From: a virus
IMG/VR virus record: IMGVR_UViG_3300008117_008504
Span: 1-48,497 of that record
Length of the DNA: 48,497 nucleotides
Strand: one strand, 5' to 3'
A program made the translations under genes and the position numbers. Shown piece by piece: positions 2,629-41,207 of the stretch (position 1 is the first letter of the stretch; every line of letters starts with the position of its first letter). The notes under the pieces were generated by a model that was given only the letters and a program-made list of their open reading frames with translations, was not told the origin of the DNA and ran no database searches.

Positions 2629-3567
2629 ATGAAGAAGTTGAAAGACAAAACGACAAAACGAATAAATAAAGCTATGGAGTATTTACACGAAGATGGAACT
2701 CCTTTTACAAAAGAAGAGTTTCTACAAAAATTAAAAACAGATAAGGAATTTAATAATGAGTTCGGTAATAAAGGAATAGACCAAATCGCAAACCTAATCA
2801 ACGACCTCAAAACAAATCCAGACTCAAGAAGACTAATGGTTTCAGCTTGGAATGTAGGTGAATTAGACCAAATGGTTCTTCCTCCCTGTCATTATGGATT
2901 TCAAGTTTATACAAGAGAGTTGAGTGAGTTAGAAAGACATGATATTAAAGAACAATATGGGTTTGATTGTAGAAAATTAGCAAAACCTTCTATTAAACAA
3001 TTAGATGATGCGAACATCCCAACCAGAGCAATCTCTTTAATGTGGAATCAACGTTCAGTAGATACATTCTTAGGTTTACCATTTAATATTGCATCATATG
3101 GTTTACTACTTGAAATTATAGCTAAATCAGTTAATATGATACCTGATGAATTGATTGGTAACTTGGGTGATGTGCATTTATATTCAAACCATATTGAACA
3201 AGCTAAAGAACAGATTGGTAGAGAGTTAGATATAATTGAGAGAATAAATTACGGAGTTAATATTTTAGGTTATGAATCATTATTAGACTATGGCCATTCT
3301 CAGAATGAAGATGAATTAATAACAAAGTTATGTAATGAATGGGGTGTACCAAAAAGAACAAGAGAACCATATCCATTACCAACATTAAACATCAATACAG
3401 AATTTTGGCCTTATGAAGGTGGTGAGTGTGGTGTAGGTCCTTTAGACGCTATTAAAGTGTTTGAAGCGTTTAAAAATGATAACTTCTGTAGATGTTTATT
3501 AGAAGAAGATATACAATTAGGTAACTATCAATCACACCAAACAATTAAAGCTCCCCTATCCAATTAA
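2629..3567 (+). CDS. thyA: Thymidylate synthase, C-terminal part (split gene)
   Basis: 312 aa carrying the catalytic half of ThyA: NPDSRRLMVSAWNVGEL, the nucleophile Cys87 in LPPCHYGFQ, MWNQRSVDTFLGLPFNIASY, GDVHLYSNH and REPYPLP. Insertions after the active-site segment make it longer than bacterial ThyA. True homology to the missing middle begins at about residue 48 (KGIDQIANLI). Residues 27-46 instead repeat a segment of the upstream half: T-K-E-E-F...F-G here against T-Q-E-E-F...W-G at residues 153-172 there, 12 of 20 identical. The LGPVYGxxWRxW block is absent between them, so this half cannot work without the upstream half. Confidence 0.9.
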   Translation: MKKLKDKTTKRINKAMEYLHEDGTPFTKEEFLQKLKTDKEFNNEFGNKGIDQIANLINDLKTNPDSRRLMVSAWNVGELDQMVLPPCHYGFQVYTRELSELERHDIKEQYGFDCRKLAKPSIKQLDDANIPTRAISLMWNQRSVDTFLGLPFNIASYGLLLEIIAKSVNMIPDELIGNLGDVHLYSNHIEQAKEQIGRELDIIERINYGVNILGYESLLDYGHSQNEDELITKLCNEWGVPKRTREPYPLPTLNINTEFWPYEGGECGVGPLDAIKVFEAFKNDNFCRCLLEEDIQLGNYQSHQTIKAPLSN

Positions 3568-4895: not shown

Positions 4896-4978
4896 TTAAA
4901 AAAATATTAACTTGGTTAAGTTTTATAGAAAACAAAAGATTAGATTATTTATCTAAATCAATCTTTGGTAAATTATAG
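4892..4978 (+). CDS. Unknown 28-aa peptide
   Basis: 28 codons; the ATG overlaps the upstream TGA and its TAG overlaps a downstream GTG start (4978). The amphipathic N-terminus MIKKILTWLSFIENK could associate with membrane. Supported only by the tight overlaps at both ends. Confidence 0.4.
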   Translation: MIKKILTWLSFIENKRLDYLSKSIFGKL

Positions 4979-5580
4979 TGGAATTAAACCATAACATACC
5001 CCATTTTAAATGTCTTGTTAGACAATCTTATTTTACAAAAAATGAAGAACATAAAAACATTTACAATAACTGTTACGCATTTGCAATACAATCAGTTCCC
5101 GCAAAAATATTGACCTTTCATGTAATTACTGATTATGGAATGGTTAGGTCAAGAGTCCCAATATCTGAGATTTATTTAAAAGAACCAACCAATGATGTTC
5201 CTTTTTATTTTAAACAACTTTGGGATTGTTTTGATAAGAATGTTACAGTTACAACTTACGACTTTTTAAAATCAAATAGGTGTGAAGTTGTATTGAGAGA
5301 TAGAACAAAAGTTTGGGCAACTTATATGTTCACTATAGATTGGTTTGACAACCCTTTTAGTGATGAGCCTTCAGATTATAAATGTGGTCATGTATTAGTT
5401 TCTGATGATGGTTATCTTTTATGTATGCCAAATAATAGAATCTATTGGAGAGACTCTAATTGGGTAACAAAAGAATTTCCTGTTGAACTCAAAGATATTA
5501 AAGTAGACACCGAACTACTGAGTGTTGAGAGTGTTTCTGACAGATGGGTATCTGATGATACGGATTCTTTTTATTACTAA
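4978..5580 (+). CDS. Unknown phage protein, 200 aa
   Basis: Starts with GTG overlapping the preceding stop (TAGTG); no suitable ATG lies nearby. A soluble-looking, beta-rich, aromatic protein with several Cys, ending in an acidic Ser/Asp stretch (VSDDTDSFYY). No family recognised. Last gene of the forward run that begins at thyA; bases 5581-5680, between it and the convergent giant gene, contain no feature I can support. Confidence 0.7.
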   Translation: MELNHNIPHFKCLVRQSYFTKNEEHKNIYNNCYAFAIQSVPAKILTFHVITDYGMVRSRVPISEIYLKEPTNDVPFYFKQLWDCFDKNVTVTTYDFLKSNRCEVVLRDRTKVWATYMFTIDWFDNPFSDEPSDYKCGHVLVSDDGYLLCMPNNRIYWRDSNWVTKEFPVELKDIKVDTELLSVESVSDRWVSDDTDSFYY

Positions 5581-5680: not shown

Positions 5681-8600
5681 TTAATCTATTTTAGAAAAAA
5701 GTGTTGTTAAATACTTTTTATTCTCATCATATATTGTTATTTGGTAGAAACCCGTATTCAAAAATCTTAAATCAACTTCATCTTCAGAATTTATATTTTT
5801 AGTTAAATAAACTTTACCTAATATATCTGAAACAACTAAATTAAATTTCTCACTTTCATTATGAAATATTCTTATTTGTAATAAACCATTACCCGGATTC
5901 GGAAATACTATAAATTCAAAATCTTTATTATCTATTTCACCAAAACCAACTGTTTTTGATGTATTACAAACTTTAGTAACTCCAAAATAAGCCATTGGAC
6001 TTGAACCACAAGTATTAACACCCATCACACTAAATGTACCACCCATAAAAGATGAGCTTGTTTTAGCCATAACACTATTTCCTGTTGTTGAACCAATAAA
6101 TTGAGTTCCGTTAGAGTTATTCCAAATATAACTTGTAATTCTTGGAGATGTTGATGCAACTAATCTAATTGTATCAGGAAAACAAACCGATGAAGTTCCT
6201 GTAACAGTGGGTCTAACAGTCAATAAACCAACTTTCTTTTTACTTAATACACTACCACAAGCAAATTGTGTCGCTAATCTTATACTATCACAAGAATTAT
6301 TAATACAAGATGTGGATTCAAAATTACTTGGGAAAAATACGTCTATAGAGTTCGTTCCTTGACCTCTCACTATTTGAGCATTTCCTGGTACAGTCCAATT
6401 AAACGATAACGCTCCTGTTGTAGATACACTATACGTGTTAGTAAACCCATTATCAACACAATTAACACCACTTATACTAACACTTGGTAAACCCAAATCA
6501 ACGGTTCTAATTCTTGTTATAGGATTTCCACATCCACCCGTAATTACAACTTGAATGTTTCCACCTGTAAAACCATTTTGGAATGTTACATTAATTGAAT
6601 TAGTTCCCTGACCACTAATTATTGTTGAGTTAGCAGGTACAGTCCACAAATAGTTAACTCCACTTATTGGACTAACACTAAACGTTGCAGGAGTGTTAGT
6701 TCCTACTAAACTACAAACACTTCTTACACCTGAAATTGCTGAAGCGGAAATTGTTGATGTTGTTGTTGATAGTGTTCTATTTGAAGATATACTTCCTCCA
6801 CAACCATTGTTTAAGTTAACACTAATTGTTCCTGAACTAAATGAGTTAGATACTAATACATTTATTGAATTAGTTCCTTGACCCGATTGTATTGTCATAT
6901 TAGTAGGAACAGTCCAAGTAAATGTTCCACTTTGATTTGTAACACTATAAGTAACTGATTGACCTAAGTACGGACACAAATCGCCAGGGCCTGTTATAGT
7001 TCCTATATTAGCGTAAAGATTATTATTAGATACAGTTCCATAAGTCATAGGTGATGAACCACATTTGTTAACTGACATCACACTAAATTGACCTGAAGTA
7101 AAGTTTGTACTAAATTTTACTTTAAGTGTGTCATTACTACTTGAACCTATTATACTAACACCATTAGGTACATTCCAAATATACATAAACGATGTAGGTA
7201 CAGAATCGACTCTATAAGTGTAAATTGTATTACCATCAGCACAAACTGTTGTAGGTCCTAAGATAGACGTAGGTCTAACAACTAATCTATCAATCGTAAA
7301 TTGAGTTGTACTACTTCCACAAGAATTTGTTGCAGTAACTGAACCACCTGAACCACTTACCAACATTATTGACACTTTAAATTGTACAGTATCGTTACCT
7401 TGTCCACTATATATATTAACTCCATAAGGTACAACCCAATTATAAGTCATATTTGGTTGTGAATTTGTTACAATGTATGATTTAATACTACCTGTAGGTT
7501 CACCACAGAAACTACCTGATACGATTGGTTTATTAGGTAATTTAGTAACCCAAATACTTCTATGATAAGTAATACCATTAGAAACAACATCAACTTCAAT
7601 ACTATCTTGAACGAACCCTGAAGAAAAATTAACATTTATTGTTGGGTTACTTAATCCATTAGTTGATGTTATACCATTAGGTAAAATCCAAGTAATACTT
7701 TCAGGACTTGCGTTAGAATAATCAATGGTATATGAACCAGAACTAAGACCACATATTGAAGTGGGACCTTCTATTTGACCAACATTAATAATTGCTGACG
7801 TACAACCCAAAGTCATTGGAGAAACTGATTGACAACCTTTAGAATCCGTAACAGTTAATGTGTAATTACCTGACGCGACGCCCGTTAAATTTTGTGTTGT
7901 TTGACCATTTGACCAACTGTATGTAAAAGGAGGAGTTCCACCAATAACACTACTACTTACAACACCATTATTTGAACCACAATTAGGGTAAGTTGTTATA
8001 TCTAATGATATACTAATTTCTGATGGTTGAGAAATATTAATATATGTAATTTTTGTACAACCTTTATTATCTGTAACAGTAATTTGATAATTACCTGATG
8101 TTAAATTAGAAATACTACTTTGAGTATTTCCTGTATTCCACATATAAAGATAAGGTAGAGTTCCTCCTGACGCAGTAACCGAAGCGCTACCATTATTACC
8201 ACCATAACAATTCACATTTGTCGTTGTTACAATTGTTGTTAGTTGAGTTGGTTGAGTTATTGTAACCGTTCTTGTCGTCTGACACCCCTTTGAATCCGTA
8301 ACTGTTACACTATAAGTGTTTGCCACAAGTGAGAAAATATCTTCTGTTGTTTGACCATTACTCCATAAGTAAGTATAAGGTGATGTTCCTCCTGATGGAG
8401 TTAAGTTTATACTACCGCCAGGTTGTCCAAAACAACTTGGGTTAAAACTAGTTGATGTTGAGGCAAGTAACGTAGGTTGAGTAATTGTGATTGATGTAGT
8501 TGATGTACAACCATAAAAATCTGTGACTGTAACTGAATAATCTCCTGATGTTAGGTTTGATATGTCCTCAGTAGTTCCACCATTAGACCAATTAAAATTA

Positions 8601-11248
8601 AAAGGTGAATTACCTAACGGAGTTAAATCTATACTACCATTATTACCACCATTACAACTAACATTAACACTTGTTGTTGATAATATAGAAGGAAATCTAA
8701 CAGTCCAAGAAGTTAATACATCATAAGCATTGTTAGAACATCCAATACCTGTAGAACAATCACCTCTGCGACCTCTTATTTGAACTACACTTCCGGCGGT
8801 TAGTGATGTTGTAGATATTAAAGTTCCTGGAGTATAACTTTGCCAAGATGTACCATTAATAGTGTATTGAAATATATCTGAACAGTTTATACCATTACTA
8901 CCCGAATTGAATGTCGCTGATACATCACTACCAACACAAACATTGTTTGAGTTGGGTGTTTTAGTATTTAAAGTTGGATTAATTGGGTCAGGAATTACAT
9001 TAACGGTATGAACGGGTGAGGTTCCTACACACCCTTTAGAATCTGTAACTACTACTCTATAATCTCTTGTTGATGTAGGTGTTGCGTTTATTGTTGTGGT
9101 TGTAACACTGTTTTGCCAAGTAGAGTTAAAAAATTGCCATTGATAAAAATAAGTTGGAAATCCCGATGTTACAGTTGAAGTTATATTATTAGTTCCCGAA
9201 CCTCCAGCACATATCTGACTTGTGTAAGTGTTTAAGGTGACAGATGGGTTTGTTGCGGTAGTTAACGACACAGTATTTGAATTAACAGATTGATTACAAG
9301 TATTTGTAATACTAACATAATAATTTCCTAATGTTGATGTAGAATAAGTCGATGAGTTAGCCCCTGATATTGGATTGTTATTTAAAAACCATTGATAAGT
9401 AAAAGGTTGTCTAACTCCTGATGCGGTAACTGAAAAAGTTACTTGTGATGTACAAGTTGTTTCATTAATAGGTTGTGTAGTTATTGTTGGCGGTGAAGAA
9501 GTGTAATTAACTGATAATTGAAATGTTCCTCTTGCATTACTATAACCTGTAACCATCACATAATATTCTGTTAAATCTGTTGTTGCAAATGTAACTTCAG
9601 AACGAGTACTACAAAAATCATCACTATAGGTTAAACAAGTAAGTGCTCCACAAGTTCCTGTATATACAAATAATTTAGTATCAAAAGAAGTTCCTGTACA
9701 TAAACTTAATGTTACATTTTGTCCGTTACCAATAACCTTATACCAAACCCCTGGTGCAGTCCAAGTCTCAGAGCCACCGTTATAACAACTTGGTGAATCA
9801 CCTGTTTGAGTCGCATTTTGAGTACTACCATTGAAAGTTGTATTACAAGAGGTGATAATCGCTCCTGAACATTCATCATTTGAAGGTGGTGGAATTGTAC
9901 ACTGAACACTTCTTGTTCTTATTGTTACTGATTCTCCACATGAGTTATTTGTATGAGTATAAAATCTCACAGTTTCGTTTGAACTTGGTGTATAAACAAC
10001 TGGTGTTGTCCCGTAAACTAAAACTGTTGTTCCTCCATTATTACTAATAGTTATAAAATCTGTTAACACCGAACTTCTAAATGTATATTGAATTCCTCCT
10101 GTTAAACTAACCACTGAGTATTCACCCGCGTAACCACCTGTTGTAATATTTTCTTGAGTTCCTGAACAAGTTGGTGTGTATGTTGATGTCGGCCATTGAC
10201 CATTTGAAGCGGTTAGACATCCAGGACCTGAAGTTGTAAATGTCCATACCGAACATCCTATAGCATTACCTGCAGAATTCTTTGGGATTATTTGCCAATA
10301 ATATTGTGTGTTATAACTTAATGTTGATGGAGTATATGTTGTTCCAACTTGGTTAACAACAAAAGGTGGAGACGAATTTGACCCAAAATAAACATCATAA
10401 CTTGTTGCACCAGATACCGCTCCCCAAGTTAAAGTAGGTCCTATAAATACACCCGTTTGATTATTTGTTGGCGATGTTAAAGTTGCACAAATAGGAACCG
10501 CTTGATAAGTTAATATAACTCTACCCGCAGCACCTCCACCACCAGCTCTACCTGTTGTATTATTTTTATACGCACCGCCACCTCCACCACCTGGAGATAC
10601 ACCTGACGAACCTGCTCCACCTGAAGAGTGACCACTACCACCATTACCTCCACCAGCAGGTGCGGTAGCTCCCGCAGTTCCCGTTGCATCAACACCGGCT
10701 AAAGTAGTTCCTGCTGATGAGCCCCCTCCTCCCGAAGTTACCCCACCAACTCTACCACTACCACCCCTACTTGATGTTCCTATACACCCTGTTGTAGAAC
10801 CAACTCCAGCAGTAGTTCCAACTGCACTTTGTCCGCCCTTAGCGACAACACCGTTAGTTGATACTGTAGGGGCAATGTTTGACAATTTACTAACCCAAGT
10901 ATCATTACCGTTAGATGCGTTACCTTGAACTCCAGCTCTTGCTGCTCCAACACTATAATAAATTGTTTGACCAGGTGTTACAGATATTGTTGTTGTTGAA
11001 CGAGAACCTCCCGCTCCGCCCGCAAATCCCCCTGTTCCTGATGTTGATTGTCCGGCACCAGCTCCACCACCACCCCAAGCATCAATTTTAATTGAGTATA
11101 CGTTAGCAGGGACAGTCCAAGTTCCTGATGATGTTCCAACATTTGCTCCTGAGGCGGGCATTGTTTGAGAAAAATTTTTAAGATTACATAAAATAAAAAT
11201 AGATAAGAATAGGGTCTTAAAAAATGATGATAAAGTAAGAGGTTTCAT
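5681..11248 (-). CDS. Giant T9SS-secreted adhesin-like protein with SprB repeats
   Basis: 1855 aa. Order from the N-terminus: a Sec signal peptide (hydrophobic about 10-24, cleavage near residue 28); a Gly-rich domain (about 45-250) with GGGGAGAG-type runs; an FN3-like domain (about 252-345); two Cys-rich beta domains (about 345-585; the second begins NDECSGA); Ig-like domains; four SprB-type repeats (each with C...G...G..P..Y.W..G.TT..I..L..G.Y.VTVTD..GC); seven PKD-like modules (WTVP...SGQGTNSI...CG); and a C-terminal type A T9SS sorting domain (FIVFPNPGNGLLQI...LGKVYL...LNTGFYQITI). T9SS exports such proteins to the cell surface in gliding Bacteroidota. Finding one on a phage is odd: it may alter the infected cell surface, act as an adhesin, or be recently acquired host DNA. 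It is alone on its strand. Confidence 0.9.
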   Translation of the reverse strand: MKPLTLSSFFKTLFLSIFILCNLKNFSQTMPASGANVGTSSGTWTVPANVYSIKIDAWGGGGAGAGQSTSGTGGFAGGAGGSRSTTTISVTPGQTIYYSVGAARAGVQGNASNGNDTWVSKLSNIAPTVSTNGVVAKGGQSAVGTTAGVGSTTGCIGTSSRGGSGRVGGVTSGGGGSSAGTTLAGVDATGTAGATAPAGGGNGGSGHSSGGAGSSGVSPGGGGGGAYKNNTTGRAGGGGAAGRVILTYQAVPICATLTSPTNNQTGVFIGPTLTWGAVSGATSYDVYFGSNSSPPFVVNQVGTTYTPSTLSYNTQYYWQIIPKNSAGNAIGCSVWTFTTSGPGCLTASNGQWPTSTYTPTCSGTQENITTGGYAGEYSVVSLTGGIQYTFRSSVLTDFITISNNGGTTVLVYGTTPVVYTPSSNETVRFYTHTNNSCGESVTIRTRSVQCTIPPPSNDECSGAIITSCNTTFNGSTQNATQTGDSPSCYNGGSETWTAPGVWYKVIGNGQNVTLSLCTGTSFDTKLFVYTGTCGALTCLTYSDDFCSTRSEVTFATTDLTEYYVMVTGYSNARGTFQLSVNYTSSPPTITTQPINETTCTSQVTFSVTASGVRQPFTYQWFLNNNPISGANSSTYSTSTLGNYYVSITNTCNQSVNSNTVSLTTATNPSVTLNTYTSQICAGGSGTNNITSTVTSGFPTYFYQWQFFNSTWQNSVTTTTINATPTSTRDYRVVVTDSKGCVGTSPVHTVNVIPDPINPTLNTKTPNSNNVCVGSDVSATFNSGSNGINCSDIFQYTINGTSWQSYTPGTLISTTSLTAGSVVQIRGRRGDCSTGIGCSNNAYDVLTSWTVRFPSILSTTSVNVSCNGGNNGSIDLTPLGNSPFNFNWSNGGTTEDISNLTSGDYSVTVTDFYGCTSTTSITITQPTLLASTSTSFNPSCFGQPGGSINLTPSGGTSPYTYLWSNGQTTEDIFSLVANTYSVTVTDSKGCQTTRTVTITQPTQLTTIVTTTNVNCYGGNNGSASVTASGGTLPYLYMWNTGNTQSSISNLTSGNYQITVTDNKGCTKITYINISQPSEISISLDITTYPNCGSNNGVVSSSVIGGTPPFTYSWSNGQTTQNLTGVASGNYTLTVTDSKGCQSVSPMTLGCTSAIINVGQIEGPTSICGLSSGSYTIDYSNASPESITWILPNGITSTNGLSNPTINVNFSSGFVQDSIEVDVVSNGITYHRSIWVTKLPNKPIVSGSFCGEPTGSIKSYIVTNSQPNMTYNWVVPYGVNIYSGQGNDTVQFKVSIMLVSGSGGSVTATNSCGSSTTQFTIDRLVVRPTSILGPTTVCADGNTIYTYRVDSVPTSFMYIWNVPNGVSIIGSSSNDTLKVKFSTNFTSGQFSVMSVNKCGSSPMTYGTVSNNNLYANIGTITGPGDLCPYLGQSVTYSVTNQSGTFTWTVPTNMTIQSGQGTNSINVLVSNSFSSGTISVNLNNGCGGSISSNRTLSTTTSTISASAISGVRSVCSLVGTNTPATFSVSPISGVNYLWTVPANSTIISGQGTNSINVTFQNGFTGGNIQVVITGGCGNPITRIRTVDLGLPSVSISGVNCVDNGFTNTYSVSTTGALSFNWTVPGNAQIVRGQGTNSIDVFFPSNFESTSCINNSCDSIRLATQFACGSVLSKKKVGLLTVRPTVTGTSSVCFPDTIRLVASTSPRITSYIWNNSNGTQFIGSTTGNSVMAKTSSSFMGGTFSVMGVNTCGSSPMAYFGVTKVCNTSKTVGFGEIDNKDFEFIVFPNPGNGLLQIRIFHNESEKFNLVVSDILGKVYLTKNINSEDEVDLRFLNTGFYQITIYDENKKYLTTLFSKID

Positions 11249-11260
11249 CTTCTTGTTTTT

Positions 11261-11280
11261 TTGATACCTCCTAAGAGGTG
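11261..11280 (-). promoter_or_regulatory. Hairpin covering a purine-rich ribosome-binding-like site
   Basis: Inverted repeat ACCTC (11266-11270) and GAGGT (11275-11279) with a 4-nt loop, lying 17 nt upstream of the giant adhesin gene's start on the minus strand. The 3' arm read on that strand, TAGGAGGT, is a near-perfect Shine-Dalgarno sequence, unusual in this genome where most starts have none. The spacing to the ATG is too long for classical use, so the hairpin may be a translational switch or a protein site. The function is inferred. Confidence 0.4.
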
Positions 11281-11387
11281 GTTATTAATAACACGTCATA
11301 TATTTATAAATATAAAGAAATTATACAATTTTGAAAAAACTATTGTTGTTTAATTAAAGTTTAAATCTTATATTTTTAATAAAAAAA

Positions 11388-11537
11388 ATGAAAGAAATTA
11401 CAATACTAAAAAAAGTCGAGAACTACTACGTTGTTCAATCTCTTGATGGAGAAACTCATGTTATTGATGAAGAAACTTTAAAAAAGTTAATATCTTATGG
11501 TAAAGTTTTTAACCATGAAGATTATATTTATGATTAA
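11388..11537 (+). CDS. Unknown 49-aa protein
   Basis: Encodes MKEITILKKVENYYVVQS, a short beta-hairpin-like protein with an acidic C-terminus. Its TAA overlaps the next gene's ATG (TAATG), implying an operon with the HEWVH protein. No recognised family. The upstream stretch 11281-11387 is AT-rich and has no clear TAnnTTTG promoter on either strand. Confidence 0.6.
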   Translation: MKEITILKKVENYYVVQSLDGETHVIDEETLKKLISYGKVFNHEDYIYD

Positions 11538-11926
11538 TGAAAGTAACGGTAAAACATATAAAATCAAAAATAGATAAACGGAATTATAATATAATAGATA
11601 AGTTTATTCATTTTTTACAAGAACAATATTCATTAAATAATGATGTTGTTATTAATTTTGTTGGGGAAAGAATTGGTAAAATGACCACCGGGTCAAGAAG
11701 AAAAGACAGTAATATTTTTGTATTAACTAAAAAAAGAATTATTAGAGATATATTAAGAACATTGGCTCATGAATGGGTTCACGAATATCAAATGAATGTA
11801 TTAAATAGAGAAAGAGGTCCTGATATTGGTGGTGAAAATGAAGACATGGCGAACGCCGAGGCGGGTGCATTGATGAAAAAATTTGAAAAAAGAAATCCTG
11901 ATATTGAAGAAAAGATGTATGAATAA
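11537..11926 (+). CDS. Small zinc metallopeptidase-like protein (HEWVH)
   Basis: 129 aa. HExxH motif at residues 78-82 in TLAHEWVHEYQ, with a downstream acidic helix (ENEDMANAEAGAL) that could provide the third zinc ligand, as in SprT-like or gluzincin-type minimal peptidases. The N-terminal half is basic. Coupled to the 49-aa ORF upstream. Ends 24 nt before the convergent prolyl isomerase gene. Substrate unknown. Confidence 0.75.
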   Translation: MKVTVKHIKSKIDKRNYNIIDKFIHFLQEQYSLNNDVVINFVGERIGKMTTGSRRKDSNIFVLTKKRIIRDILRTLAHEWVHEYQMNVLNRERGPDIGGENEDMANAEAGALMKKFEKRNPDIEEKMYE

Positions 11927-11950: not shown

Positions 11951-12376
11951 TTAGTCAACAGATACTATTTCTAAATCAAATATTAGTTTTTTACCAGCCA
12001 ATGGATGATTTGCATCAACAACAACACTATCTTCTTTTATTTCAGTCACTCTAACTACAATAGGTCCTTGAGGACCGTGTCCTTCTAAACTGTCACCAAT
12101 ACTACAATTTTCAGGAACTTGGTCTTTAGGAATTTCAGCCGTCATATCTGAAATATGGTGACCATAAGCGTCCCCTGGTTCAATCTCAATAGTTTTTTTT
12201 TCTCCTTCGGACATTTCTAAAAGACCGTTTTCAAATCCTTTAATTAATTGACCTTCACCTAAAACGGCGACCAAAGGTTCTCTACCAGGATTTAAAGATG
12301 AATCAAAAATAGTTCCATCTTCTAGTTTTCCTGTGTAATTTACTTTAACAGTACTTTTGTTTGTTACTTTTTTCAT
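11951..12376 (-). CDS. slyD-like: FKBP-type prolyl isomerase, SlyD-like
   Basis: 141 aa. FKBP half (VKVNYTGKLEDGTIFDSS, GEGQLIKGFENGLLEMSEGEKK) followed by an IF-type insert (about 70-120, with GDAYGHHISDMTAEIP and GPQGPIVVRVTEI) and a closing DANHPLAGKKLIFDLEIVSV strand, the SlyD arrangement. The host SlyD's His-rich metal-binding tail is absent. It catalyses cis-trans proline isomerisation and acts as a folding helper. Together with the phage DnaK at 19067 it suggests that folding of phage proteins is supported by phage-encoded factors. Confidence 0.92.
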   Translation of the reverse strand: MKKVTNKSTVKVNYTGKLEDGTIFDSSLNPGREPLVAVLGEGQLIKGFENGLLEMSEGEKKTIEIEPGDAYGHHISDMTAEIPKDQVPENCSIGDSLEGHGPQGPIVVRVTEIKEDSVVVDANHPLAGKKLIFDLEIVSVD

Positions 12377-12490: not shown

Positions 12491-12676
12491 ATGTCAAACG
12501 AAGAAATTTTAGAAGAAATCTATGGAATGGCTCATAAATTTGGAGTATTTAATGAGTTTATAACTGAAGTAAATAGGTTGTTGAAAACAACAAAAGAAAC
12601 AATTTATGAAATTGCAAATAAAGTTTATTATGAATTTATAAAAAAAGGTTTAATTATTGAGGTTTGTCCTGTATAA
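12491..12676 (+). CDS. Unknown 61-aa helical protein
   Basis: I chose the ATG at 12491 (MSNEEILEEIYG) because a promoter-like TAACTTTG lies at 12447-12454 and an in-frame upstream ATG (12452) would fall inside that element. Predominantly helical and acidic at the start. Its 3' end overlaps the convergent gene by 23 nt. Confidence 0.6.
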   Translation: MSNEEILEEIYGMAHKFGVFNEFITEVNRLLKTTKETIYEIANKVYYEFIKKGLIIEVCPV

Positions 12677-12941
12677 TATCCAATCTAGTTAATAGTAGTG
12701 GCTTATAATCTTTAAGACCTGTGTATATCCAAGATTCTTCAATTATATAATTGATACCGTCTAATTGTGTTTCTTGGAATAGAGATAAATCAGCAACATA
12801 TAATACACAATCTATTATATAGTTTTTTTTATTGGTTGAGTAAGTTACGTGATTAATCTTAACTTGAGTTCCTTCTCCGTATAATAATTCAAGTTCTTTT
12901 TTATAAAGTTTATCAATTATAAGGGATAACGGTTTTTTCAT
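12654..12941 (-). CDS. Unknown 95-aa phage protein
   Basis: Small soluble protein starting MKKPLSLIIDKLYKKEL, with a beta-rich middle (KKNYIIDCVLYVADLSLF) and YIIEESWIYTGLKDY near the end. The normal amino-acid composition supports coding. It overlaps the forward ORF tail to tail. No function recognised. Confidence 0.6.
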   Translation of the reverse strand: MKKPLSLIIDKLYKKELELLYGEGTQVKINHVTYSTNKKNYIIDCVLYVADLSLFQETQLDGINYIIEESWIYTGLKDYKPLLLTRLDIIQDKPQ

Positions 12942-13937: not shown

Positions 13938-13949
13938 TATCTTTGTCGT
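13938..13949 (+). promoter_or_regulatory. TATCTTTG promoter, leaderless configuration
   Basis: TATCTTTG at 13938-13945, then 4 nt (TCGT), then the ATG at 13950. A TTTG at the -33 position is not obvious. The geometry matches the other cassette promoters. Confidence 0.75.
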
Positions 13950-15296: not shown

Positions 15297-15899
15297 TTAA
15301 CTATTTAACGATTGATAAAAATGTTTAAAGTGTTTAATTCTGTCGGCAAGACCTAATGTACCTCCATTAACTCTTTTAGTTACCGCAGTTACGGTTGCAT
15401 CATCCGCCCCCTTATCACAAATTTCCCATAACTTATTATTGTTAAAGAAAAATGCGGCTGAAGCCAAAGGATATTTTGTTGAGACCAAATCAGGATTTAC
15501 AACACAATCTTCTCCGATAAATTTAGTAAAGTTAGTGTAGTTACTTTTTCCGGTTAACTGAATATAACCTCTACCTCTAAATTTATACCCTTCTTTAGTT
15601 GTTTCATCACCATTCCCCATTCTACTACCATAAACTCTTGACGCAATTTTTTCAGGATTTTTTGCATAAGATTCCGCCAAGTTACCGGGAAAATACTTTG
15701 GGAAGACTTTCATAAGTCCGTCCTTAGAATAGTTTAGGTTTTCATTAACGGCCTTAAAATTACCCGATTCGTGGGCACATTGAGCCAAAAAATGAGCCAA
15801 TCTTAAATTAGATGTAATGTTAAATTTTGACGCCGTATCAGGGATTTGAGATAATACATTGTCAGGTACATGACCTTTTAATTTTTCTACGTTTATCAT
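15297..15899 (-). CDS. Endolysin, GH19 chitinase-like
   Basis: 200 aa single-domain GH19-fold hydrolase, a common phage endolysin type that cuts the glycan chains of peptidoglycan. Visible: AQCAHESGNF with the proposed catalytic Glu44, YGSRMGNGDET, the family signature FRGRGYIQLTGKSNY, and VTKRVNGGTLGL near the C-terminus. No signal peptide, so it needs a holin or other route to the periplasm; a holin-like gene lies at 20950-21201. It is alone on its strand, back to back with the histidine kinase gene. Confidence 0.92.
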   Translation of the reverse strand: MINVEKLKGHVPDNVLSQIPDTASKFNITSNLRLAHFLAQCAHESGNFKAVNENLNYSKDGLMKVFPKYFPGNLAESYAKNPEKIASRVYGSRMGNGDETTKEGYKFRGRGYIQLTGKSNYTNFTKFIGEDCVVNPDLVSTKYPLASAAFFFNNNKLWEICDKGADDATVTAVTKRVNGGTLGLADRIKHFKHFYQSLNS

Positions 15900-15974: not shown

Positions 15975-17576
15975 ATGAATTATAAATTTAAAACTTATTT
16001 ACTCCCTTCAATTATTATCATGTCTGTTTTTTTTATTCTTAAAACAATGATAATAATTGGTTATATTGAATCAACTCAAATTACTAAAGTTGTTGAATAT
16101 CTTTGTATAATACTATTTATACCATTATTTTATTTTTTGATGAAATCACAAAACGATGAATTAAAAAGTAATTTATTAAAGAAAATAAAAGATGATGAGG
16201 GGTTTATTGATGCTGCTGCGATTATTTCAGTAGCGGATAAAAATGGTAAAATTACATACGTTAATAAAAAATTTGAGGATGTGTCCGGATGGTCTTTGGA
16301 TGAAGTAATTGGTAAAGACCATAATATTGTTAACTCAGGACGACAACCTAATGGTTATTGGGGTAAAATGTATCAGACGGTAATGAAAGGTGAGATATGG
16401 AATGATGTTGTTACCAATAAATCAAAATCTGGTGAATTATATTACGTTGACACATATATTAAAGCGAAATTCGATAATAATGGTAAATTAGAAGGTTTTT
16501 CATCAATTAGACAAGATGTTACAGAGCTTAAGAAAAAAGAGACGGAAATCCGTAATAGAATGAATGCGATTAATAAATCTAACGCGGTTATTGAGTTTGA
16601 TTTAGAAGGAAACATTATTTTCGCAAATAATTTATTTATAGAAACTATGGGATATTCTCAACAAGATGAACTATTTGGGAAACATCACAGAATTTTTATA
16701 GATGATGAATATGCAAAAAGTGAAGATTACTCTCTTTTTTGGAAAAAATTAAATGAGGGTATATTGTTTTCTGGAGAAATTGTTAGAATCAAAAAAGACG
16801 GGTCTTTGGTACATTTACAAGCCACGTATAACCCTATTATTGGTGTGGATGGTAAAATTTATCGTATTATGAAAATCGCAACTGATGTAACTAATTCTTA
16901 TGAACAAAAGAAAGAGATTGAGAAGAAAAACACTTACCTAGAACATGCTGCTAAAATATTGAGACATGATATGCACTCAGGAATTAATACTTATATGCCA
17001 AGAGGACTTAGTTCATTAGAACGTAGATTAAAACCTGAAGATATTGAGTTGTTAAAGATTGAATCACCTCTTAAAATGATTAAAGAAGGTCTTAAACACT
17101 CACAAAAAGTTTATAAAGGTGTTTATGAGTTCACCAATCTTGTAAAGAAAGATGTTGTATTAAACAAATCTGAATGTAATGTAAAGAATATCCTTAATGA
17201 TTATTTATCATCGACCGCCTATATAAGTCAAGTCATATTAGAAGATAATTTACCAACGATTGAAATTAATGAAGCGTTGTTTTGTACTGCGGTTGATAAC
17301 CTAATAAGAAATGGTTTAAAGTATAATGACTCTGAAACAAAGTTTGTTAAGATATATTATGAAGGAGATTTAATTTTAATACAAGATAATGGTAGAGGAA
17401 TTACTCAAGAAGATTTTAATTATCTGTCTAAACCGTATACAAGAAAAGAAGGTCAAAAAGAATCAGGAACAGGGTTGGGATTAAATATTTGTGTTGCAAT
17501 TTTAGAAGAACACGGATTTACAATTACGTGCGAGAAAAACGAAATTGGGACTAAAATGAAAATAAAAATAAAATAA
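15975..17576 (+). CDS. PAS-domain sensor histidine kinase
   Basis: 533 aa. Two N-terminal membrane helices (about 8-28 and 41-56) are followed by a PAS domain (about 75-190, with ITYVNKKFEDVSGW and the linker SIRQDVTELKKKE) and a second PAS/PAC domain (about 200-310). Then come a dimerisation helix with H-box LRHDMHS (His331) and an HATPase domain with N446 (IRNGLKYN), D471 (DNGRG) and the G2 box GTGLGL at 498. All catalytic motifs are present, so it should autophosphorylate. No periplasmic sensor of any size, hence probably an intracellular signal. It heads an operon with a stand-alone receiver and a membrane coiled-coil protein. Sensor kinases are rare in phages. Confidence 0.93.
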   Translation: MNYKFKTYLLPSIIIMSVFFILKTMIIIGYIESTQITKVVEYLCIILFIPLFYFLMKSQNDELKSNLLKKIKDDEGFIDAAAIISVADKNGKITYVNKKFEDVSGWSLDEVIGKDHNIVNSGRQPNGYWGKMYQTVMKGEIWNDVVTNKSKSGELYYVDTYIKAKFDNNGKLEGFSSIRQDVTELKKKETEIRNRMNAINKSNAVIEFDLEGNIIFANNLFIETMGYSQQDELFGKHHRIFIDDEYAKSEDYSLFWKKLNEGILFSGEIVRIKKDGSLVHLQATYNPIIGVDGKIYRIMKIATDVTNSYEQKKEIEKKNTYLEHAAKILRHDMHSGINTYMPRGLSSLERRLKPEDIELLKIESPLKMIKEGLKHSQKVYKGVYEFTNLVKKDVVLNKSECNVKNILNDYLSSTAYISQVILEDNLPTIEINEALFCTAVDNLIRNGLKYNDSETKFVKIYYEGDLILIQDNGRGITQEDFNYLSKPYTRKEGQKESGTGLGLNICVAILEEHGFTITCEKNEIGTKMKIKIK

Positions 17577-17591
17577 AAAAAAAGAAAAAAA

Positions 17592-18023
17592 ATGATTGAT
17601 TCAATTTTATTAGTTGATGACGAGGATTTATTCCATTTGGTTTTTGAGGATAGTTGTTCCTTATTAGACATTACATTGTCATTAAAAAGTTTAAATAGTT
17701 CTGATGAGGCGGCTAGGTTATTCGCCGATTGGCAAAAGAACTCAAGTGGTAGACCCGAATGTGTATTCGTTGACCTTAATATTATAGGTTCATCCTTTGA
17801 TGGTATTGAACTTATTCGTAAGATTAATTTTGAATACGGTAATAACGTAGTTATAGGTATTATATCTTCGAGTAACGAATCGGAAGAACAGGCAAAGGCT
17901 ATTCAAGCGGGAGCTCAATTTTGGATAATAAAATCTGATGATATTGAACCTCGTTTAGAAGAGTTTAGAAAAGATTACGAAGGTTATAAAAATAGAACCT
18001 CACCTTTTAAGGTTTATAAATAA
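17592..18023 (+). CDS. Stand-alone response-regulator receiver
   Basis: 143 aa, REC domain only. The acidic pocket (LVDDED, residues 7-12), phosphoacceptor Asp61 in VFVDLNI, the Ser/Thr region (GIISSSN) and the Lys in WIIKSDD are all present. No DNA-binding or enzymatic output domain follows, so it acts through protein contact or as a phosphate relay, as in CheY or Rcp1-type proteins. It starts 15 nt after the kinase stop and its stop overlaps the next start, so all three proteins are probably made together. Confidence 0.92.
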   Translation: MIDSILLVDDEDLFHLVFEDSCSLLDITLSLKSLNSSDEAARLFADWQKNSSGRPECVFVDLNIIGSSFDGIELIRKINFEYGNNVVIGIISSSNESEEQAKAIQAGAQFWIIKSDDIEPRLEEFRKDYEGYKNRTSPFKVYK

Positions 18024-34957: not shown

Positions 34958-35575
34958 ATGAAAACAAATAAATATAAAACAGCGTTACTTACGGGAGCAA
35001 TGGTATTACTATCTTCTGTTAGTGTTTCAGCAACCCCTGACAATCAACCCGAACCCCCTAAAAAAGGAACAAAATTACAAGCAATTGTAATCAATGGAGA
35101 TACCTTACCTGTGGTTAATTTAAGTATGGTAACTATCCAAACTGATATGGTTTTTGCCACAAGAAGACAAAGAGAACAATGGGATGTGGTTAAATTCAAT
35201 GTAAGAAAAGTGTACCCATACGCAATATTAGCATCGGCAAAACTAAAAGAATATGAGGTTGCGTTAAGTAAAATACAAGACGAAGATGACCGTGATGACT
35301 ATATGAAATACGCCGAAGACCAATTACAAAAACAATTCGGAGAAGAATTAAAAAAATTGTCGATGAAACAAGGTAAAATATTAATCAAATTGATTGATAG
35401 ACAGACTGGTAATACGTCTTATGAACTTGTTAAAAAACTTAGAGGTAGATTCTCAGCCTTTATGTGGCAAGGTGTGGCAAGACTTTTTGGGTCAAACTTA
35501 AAATCTGAGTATGATGCGAATGGTGATGATAAATTAATAGAACTTGCCATAAGACAAATCGAATCAGGAAATTAA
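34958..35575 (+). CDS. DUF4294-family secreted protein
   Basis: 205 aa with a Sec signal peptide (hydrophobic about 9-22, cleavage near SVSA). The mature part follows the DUF4294 pattern of Bacteroidota: FNVRKVYPYAILASAKLKEY, then GKILIKLIDRQTGNTSYEL, RGRFSAFMWQGVARLFG and SEYDANGDDK. The family is known from host genomes and its role is obscure. It looks like a gene taken from a host and given a phage promoter. Acts in the periplasm if exported as predicted. Confidence 0.85.
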   Translation: MKTNKYKTALLTGAMVLLSSVSVSATPDNQPEPPKKGTKLQAIVINGDTLPVVNLSMVTIQTDMVFATRRQREQWDVVKFNVRKVYPYAILASAKLKEYEVALSKIQDEDDRDDYMKYAEDQLQKQFGEELKKLSMKQGKILIKLIDRQTGNTSYELVKKLRGRFSAFMWQGVARLFGSNLKSEYDANGDDKLIELAIRQIESGN

Positions 35576-40715: not shown

Positions 40716-41207
40716 ATGAATATATTCTTTTTAGACATGGATGTTAAAAAATGTGCAGAGTACCATTGTGACAAACACGTTGTTAAAATGGTACTTGAGA
40801 CCGCACAACTTCTTTGTTCGGCTCATCATATAACAGACCAAGTAACCGACCAAATACCATATAAGTTGGCTCATAAGAATCATCCGTGTTCTATATGGGT
40901 TAGAGAAAGTTTAACCAATTATCTATACCTTTGTGAGTTAGGTTTGGAGTTATGTAAAGAATATAGTTACAGGTATGAAAAACGACACAAATCTCAAGAA
41001 GTAATAGAATGGTGTGTAACAAATAAGGTAAAAATTTGTGACAAAGGATTAACAGAGCCACCAAAGGCAATGCCCGATGAATACAAAGTTAAAGACGTTG
41101 TAGAGTCCTACAGGAACTATTATATGGGGGCAAAAAAATCTTTTGCAACGTGGAAAAAAAGGGACACTCCTATTTGGTATAATTTTGAAAAAAATTTGGC
41201 AGATTAA
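40716..41207 (+). CDS. Conserved phage protein (YHCDKHVVKM family)
   Basis: 163 aa. MNIFFLDMDVKKCAEYHCDK, HVVKMVLETAQLLCSAHH, HPCSIWVRESLTNY and VESYRNYYMGAKKSFATWKK form a pattern common in tailed phages, sometimes labelled pyrimidine-dimer glycosylase-like without proof. Conserved Cys, His and Trp suggest an enzyme. It ends with NLAD encoded by the next promoter cassette, exactly as the exostosin-like gene does. Confidence 0.75.
   Translation: MNIFFLDMDVKKCAEYHCDKHVVKMVLETAQLLCSAHHITDQVTDQIPYKLAHKNHPCSIWVRESLTNYLYLCELGLELCKEYSYRYEKRHKSQEVIEWCVTNKVKICDKGLTEPPKAMPDEYKVKDVVESYRNYYMGAKKSFATWKKRDTPIWYNFEKNLAD

Follow-up and report, generated by a model that had tools for sequence, protein, structure and literature searches.

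The adhesin locus

The window, that is, the whole 48,497-nucleotide stretch of viral DNA analysed here, carries on its minus strand a gene for an adhesin of 1855 amino acids (5681-11248), recognised from its open reading frame and from domain profiles as T9SS type A cargo. The initial annotation, made from the letters alone, had read in this frame a Sec signal peptide, four SprB-type repeats, seven PKD-like modules and a type A T9SS sorting domain, and this description has been borne out: the reading frame is real, and Pfam profiles return exactly four SprB repeats and seven PKD_6 stretches, all above their cut-offs. At the N-terminus a Sec signal peptide is visible at residues 1-28 (11165-11248; MKPLTLSSFFKTLFLSIFILCNLKNFSQ/T, ending ..NLKNFSQ/T), a call made, like those for all signal peptides reported here, by eye and with a crude hydropathy rule, and not with SignalP. 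It is followed by a Gly_rich_2 domain, likewise above its cut-off, at residues 39-249 (10502-11134; Pfam PF21722), an Ig-like domain at residues 594-658 (9275-9469), the SprB repeats at residues ~851-1150 (7799-8698; PF13573), the PKD_6 array at residues ~1160-1770 (5939-7771; PF19408) and a C-terminal sorting domain (CTD) at residues 1781-1848 (5705-5908), all on the minus strand and with only approximate limits for the two repeat regions. The gene had also been described as alone on its strand, which is correct locally; 11951-12376, 12654-12941 and 15297-15899 are likewise on the minus strand. Its neighbours downstream (4978-5580) and upstream (11537-11926) both lie on the plus strand and were identified in a search for relatives as conserved phage genes, each present in at least 80 viral contigs.

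The window is itself an IMG/VR entry. A second record, IMGVR_UViG_3300031857_024884 (203,171 bp; hereafter G001), is the reverse complement of the window and is identical to it over the window's first 42.7 kb, the sole difference being a small indel near position ~42693, by a tandem paralogue pair (MKNKLFIDESEK..), past which G001 extends for a further ~155 kb. This record encodes a T4-type terminase, a major head protein, a tail sheath and a tail tube, and among the best matches listed for its terminase are Flavobacterium phage vB_FspM_immuto and an uncultured phage of 484 kb. An artefact in which host DNA was joined to phage DNA during assembly or binning, the result that would have refuted the initial annotation, might be argued from the window record itself, whose two ends fall exactly at start codons. 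This looks like gene-boundary trimming by a virus-calling pipeline and not like biology, and the artefact is hard to reconcile with the longer record, which has the same arrangement and continues into structural genes, with the conserved phage genes on both flanks and with the orthologues found in other assemblies. A chimera at the adhesin locus is excluded for practical purposes, and we give an assembly artefact almost no credence. The host phylum is inferred to be Bacteroidetes, from the sorting signal together with TAnnTTTG promoters elsewhere in the DNA.

Export signals

The sorting domain of the adhesin exceeds the curated cut-offs of both type A profiles, scoring 34.7 bits against 23 for TIGR04183 (residues 1781-1848) and 36.6 against 27 for PF18962 (Por_Secre_tail). 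A profile search also matched the CTD to PDB 8glk_D (E 2.7e-6), an entry entitled 'Type 9 Secretion System dGldL peak II, NucA substrate bound complex', and the same entry was matched by fold (TMt 0.68, 77 columns, rmsd 3.3); the AlphaFold model of the last 166 residues of the adhesin has a pLDDT of 51, and only its CTD half was usable. By profile and by fold alike, the CTD belongs with a substrate whose structure was determined on the T9SS translocon. No type B sorting domain was found in the adhesin, in which TIGR04183 and the Pfam profiles detect the type A domain alone, and type A cargo is delivered to the attachment complex of PorV and PorU (PMC11205867).

The gliding adhesins SprB and RemA of Flavobacterium johnsoniae likewise have SprB-type repeats and are T9SS-exported surface adhesins, although these are host chromosomal and gliding-linked, whereas the window adhesin has a type A CTD and a Gly-rich N-terminal domain and lies in a phage genome. 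SprB of F. johnsoniae carries a type B sorting domain, and of the features that define a SprB gliding adhesin the window protein has the SprB repeats (PF13573) and lacks the type B sorting domain.

Orthologues, selection and position

Relatives of the adhesin occur in six more viral contigs (G002, G003, L229, L230, L232 and L233), with identities to the window adhesin of 72%, 71% and 69% in G002, G003 and L229, respectively, and with copies in L230 and L233 that are truncated at contig or locus ends. In L232, a 281-kb phage, the orthologue has 2324 amino acids and 47% identity in its best segment, and comprises six SprB and six PKD_6 stretches and a type A CTD above the cut-off. The signal peptide is divergent in sequence yet present in every orthologue whose start can be read, and the last 85 residues, although the most divergent part between the window and G002 (42% identity versus 72% overall), are still recognisable as a CTD. 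The same pair gives a dN of 0.227 and a dS of 0.92, and the resulting dN/dS of ~0.25 is, by sequence comparison, the mark of purifying selection on the adhesin.

In G002, G003 and L229 the adhesin adjoins a homologue of the window gene at 40716-41207, whereas in the window it sits between 4978-5580 and 11537-11926, and from these differing neighbours it follows that the adhesin gene has moved. In L232 it is found in a third genomic context, among genes that look structural by eye, so that the orthologues occupy at least two positions other than that in the window. In G002 and G003 a different, cargo-like gene with a signal peptide (541 amino acids) lies close before the homologue of 4978-5580, at the place that the adhesin occupies in the window.

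This variable position, together with the SprB, PKD and CTD modules, which are common in Bacteroidota, would suit a host-type cargo gene in neutral transit that brings the phage no benefit. We regard such passive carriage as improbable in view of the purifying selection, of the phage-type promoter motif that lies upstream (see below) and of orthologues in phages that reach down to 47% identity, while the matches to the adhesin among 84,980 bacterial and archaeal species were all partial and at the level of repeats; the scan that gave them was pattern-based, and detects close relatives but can miss distant ones.

A second alternative is that the adhesin is a virion component, either a fibre or a capsid decoration, in which signal peptide and CTD are leftovers of host-derived sequence. 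The Ig-like domain resembles proteins that decorate phage capsids (PDB 5lxk, 8zvi; Hoc-like PHROGs) and also RB43-type whisker proteins, and a virion role is not excluded because residues 575-752 have a weak likeness to Hoc-like head decoration and RB43 whisker proteins; the copy in L232 amid structural-looking genes and a promoter motif held in common with structural genes can be added to this. Signal peptide and CTD have nevertheless both been kept through deep divergence, and the adhesin in G001 lies more than 50 kb from the identified head and tail genes, which makes a virion component unlikely in our assessment.

Promoter and leader of the window gene

On the minus strand at 11305-11313, a phage late-type promoter motif, ATATTTATA, starts 65 nt before the adhesin ATG. 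The orthologues in G002, G003 and L229, at their other locus, are likewise preceded by the string TTTATATTTATA. In G001, 13 kb of intergenic DNA upstream of genes contain 36 copies of the motif ATATTTAT[AT], against 14 copies in the 189 kb that are coding, and the motif precedes structural genes and the endolysin as well as some auxiliary or non-structural genes. The host-type TAnnTTTG box, which is present at many auxiliary genes, is absent upstream of the adhesin. Expression of the adhesin is therefore inferred, from these motifs only, to be controlled by the phage and probably late, an inference tempered by the occurrence of the motif at auxiliary genes.

The unusual hairpin that was said to cover the ribosome site is present as the inverted repeat ACCTC-TTAG-GAGGT (11266-11279, minus strand), which is weak and is not the conserved leader of the orthologues. 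The window leader folds just 1.4 SD better than shuffles (z -1.4) and the AGGAGGT of the hairpin lies ~18 nt from the ATG; for these two reasons cover of the ribosome site is not established, and the hairpin was set aside as a meaningful structure of this kind. The possibility that the window leader is a degenerate copy of the conserved RNA described next (model R1) was rejected too, with a best score of 6.8 bits, and R1 was found neither in G001 nor before the window adhesin.

A conserved RNA leader on genes for predicted export cargo

The adhesin leaders of G002/L229 and of the distant L232 fold into the same stems. A 27-nt leader pattern matched 52 viral-contig stretches, and a relaxed pattern added five, giving 57 places with 37 distinct sequences. 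Three stems make up the leader (instances L263-L314, L327, L329-L331, L333 and L347:5997-6059), in which 94% of cells are paired, with 26 double-change cells versus 11.5 in shuffles, and slid controls collapse. Since the first pattern fixed most of the P1 and P2 columns, these say little; changes were seen at the tip of P2 (CCCAT/ATGGG to CCCAA/TTGGG), at several places in P3 and, in the relaxed scan with P1 left free, from CTC/GAG to CAC/GTG. The R1 stems are backed by compensatory change.

A downstream start could be read for 53 of the 57 instances, and all 53 of the proteins begin with a signal-peptide-like sequence, against a background of 6.5% of ORFs under a similar crude rule; the 53 are not independent trials, as many of the instances are related by descent. 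The promoter motif was recognised upstream of the leader in 30 of 34 distinct sequences and, where recognised, mostly starts 13-20 nt before the R1 element, so that the leader is probably the 5' end of the mRNA. Exactly one copy of R1 is found in each of 23 records. Among the complete proteins downstream of the leader (n=23), TIGR04183 is present in nine and PF18962 in ten, and most of the remainder have at their end a GQEV..EIYxDGT tail, which is of uncertain meaning and may or may not be an alternative sorting signal; the LPIEL-type domain that precedes this tail occurs widely among Bacteroidota, in 81 of 198 genomes, where most matches end short of the tail. The T4-type head protein family phrog_138 has a strong match in eight of 39 leader-bearing records and a moderate one in a ninth.

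In its position and conserved stems R1 resembles the cis-regulatory leaders of Rfam, but no Rfam 15 family matches it at E up to 5 (tested in L229 and L232). It was not found in plasmids, nor in 395 Bacteroidota genomes under strict filters, a result that without a positive control is only suggestive. Weak matches to the R1 model in L066, L090, L006 and L210 were not retained after inspection. INPHARED yielded one match, in the 634-kb phage LR745206, where the ORF after the leader contains, as far as it was read, little beyond a signal peptide and a CTD-like tail; this miniature version speaks further against the adhesin as a virion component.

In several related jumbo phages the adhesin gene is one of a wider set of exported-cargo genes with a common RNA leader on their mRNAs, while the window adhesin sits at another locus with a different leader from these relatives. 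We are evenly divided on a more general proposal, namely that large T4-like Bacteroidota phages have a dedicated 'export slot' in single copy, in which a late-type promoter and, directly after it, the RNA leader would precede an exchangeable T9SS-exported gene. On this view the leader would act as a novel cis-regulatory RNA of phages, through which late expression or translation is tied to cargo for export. The leader serves as a sequence handle for finding cargo genes, and it raises the question of what recognises it.

Other T9SS cargo in related phages

The search for TIGR04183 in other phages that the initial annotation had proposed gave matches above the cut-off in 11 of 50 related phage records, and their type A CTDs belong to at least three unrelated protein families. 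G001 itself has a cluster of three genes at 52,252-54,051 (window orientation; L011:9121-10920, minus strand) for signal-peptide proteins of 215, 189 and 189 amino acids. The third of these closes with a type B sorting domain (TIGR04131), the other two with motifs similar to P-V-x-x-x-I-x-H-N/D. A homologous cluster in L229 (L229:14718-16466) lies close behind the adhesin, with one signal-peptide gene of 361 amino acids between them, and G040 and G041 follow the same plan. The cluster could be taken for a modular adhesin in separate pieces or for a fibre made of subunits. It was also noted in L224 and L190. Separately, a region found in related phages (L214:11679-16339) encodes a cargo protein of 629 amino acids that bears a type A CTD. 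Nearby are other exported proteins and a small lipoprotein-like one, which is CsgG-like by eye and has no Pfam or NCBIfam match.

In the 642-kb phage LR756502, TIGR04131 is matched three times and TIGR04183 once. One of the proteins so matched, of 1670 amino acids, is like the window adhesin in combining a signal peptide, SprB repeats (13 copies) and a T9SS sorting domain in a huge phage, but its sorting domain is of type B (CHU_C), and it is not an orthologue of the adhesin over its length.

Phage-encoded T9SS cargo is already known from two earlier reports. Genes with type A T9SS sorting domains have been described in the Bacteroidetes phage Cryophage, whose authors proposed a hijack of the host T9SS and named superinfection exclusion among their suggestions (Bellas et al., 2020; PMC7468147), and one crAss-BACON ORF with a T9SS sorting domain was reported from crAss-like phages in 2019 (PMC6949934). 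The adhesin resembles the Cryophage genes in being a sorting-domain gene inside a Bacteroidetes phage genome, the phylum being inferred in our case. Cryophage cargo consists of an endoglucanase, a GH39 protein and a PA14 protein, in contrast to the giant SprB/PKD protein found here, and the passages of that report consulted here describe no giant SprB/PKD adhesin, promoter analysis or RNA leader (PMC7468147). The crAss-BACON ORF differs in its BACON architecture, its gut crAss-like phages and its place near head genes. In the literature searched, no description was found either of a giant SprB/PKD adhesin with a phage promoter in jumbo T4-like phages or of an RNA leader common to exported cargo genes; what appears to be new is this adhesin variant and, above all, the leader.

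A putative route to the host surface

The best-supported reading is that the adhesin is a phage gene product addressed to the host surface via the host T9SS and is not a part of the virion, with export and location both inferred. Within an infected Bacteroidota cell, a late-type phage gene would give rise to this giant, modular adhesin, its Sec signal peptide would take the protein across the inner membrane, and its type A CTD would hand it to the host-encoded T9SS, to be carried to the outer surface, where it would be cleaved and then anchored or released. Such a route would make the adhesin a tool for remodelling the surface of the infected cell instead of a virion building block. We consider it likely that this explanation holds as a whole, that is, that a late-type phage adhesin is exported by the host T9SS and remodels the infected-cell surface.

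What this would be for can only be inferred. Gliding proteins matter for the adsorption of Flavobacteriia phages, and SprB and RemA have been discussed as possible phage receptors (PMC13288928), for which reason a SprB-type adhesin could alter adhesion, aggregation or superinfection. The purpose that we favour, tentatively and short of conviction, is to make the infected cell adhere or aggregate differently; next comes superinfection exclusion, through masking of, or competition with, receptors of the gliding-adhesin type, which remains possible and rather doubtful. The findings suggest that large Bacteroidota phages repeatedly rebuild the infected-cell surface through the host T9SS, with adhesins from a repertoire that also supplies the gliding adhesins, themselves candidate phage receptors. 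If export is confirmed, the phage-specified surface could affect superinfection, aggregation and how infected cells attach to particles.

Other genes in the window

A PAS-PAS histidine kinase is followed by a receiver-only response regulator at 15975-18023, which by Pfam form a two-component pair. Thymidylate synthase is apparently encoded in two separate ORFs, and an ORF for an HNH-like homing endonuclease lies between these (334-948, 988-1689 and 2629-3567); the endonuclease was judged by eye and has no Pfam match, and no intron was found in this region at the Rfam gathering threshold. The Bacteroidota-type box TATCTTTGTAttATG occurs on the plus strand at 13938, 14571, 24980, 34015, 35600, 38023 and 41219, in each case with a start codon ~4 nt after the box, so that these auxiliary genes probably give rise to leaderless mRNAs. 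At 34958-35575 the phage carries a gene for a DUF4294 protein (PF14127, 171.7 bits) with a signal peptide.
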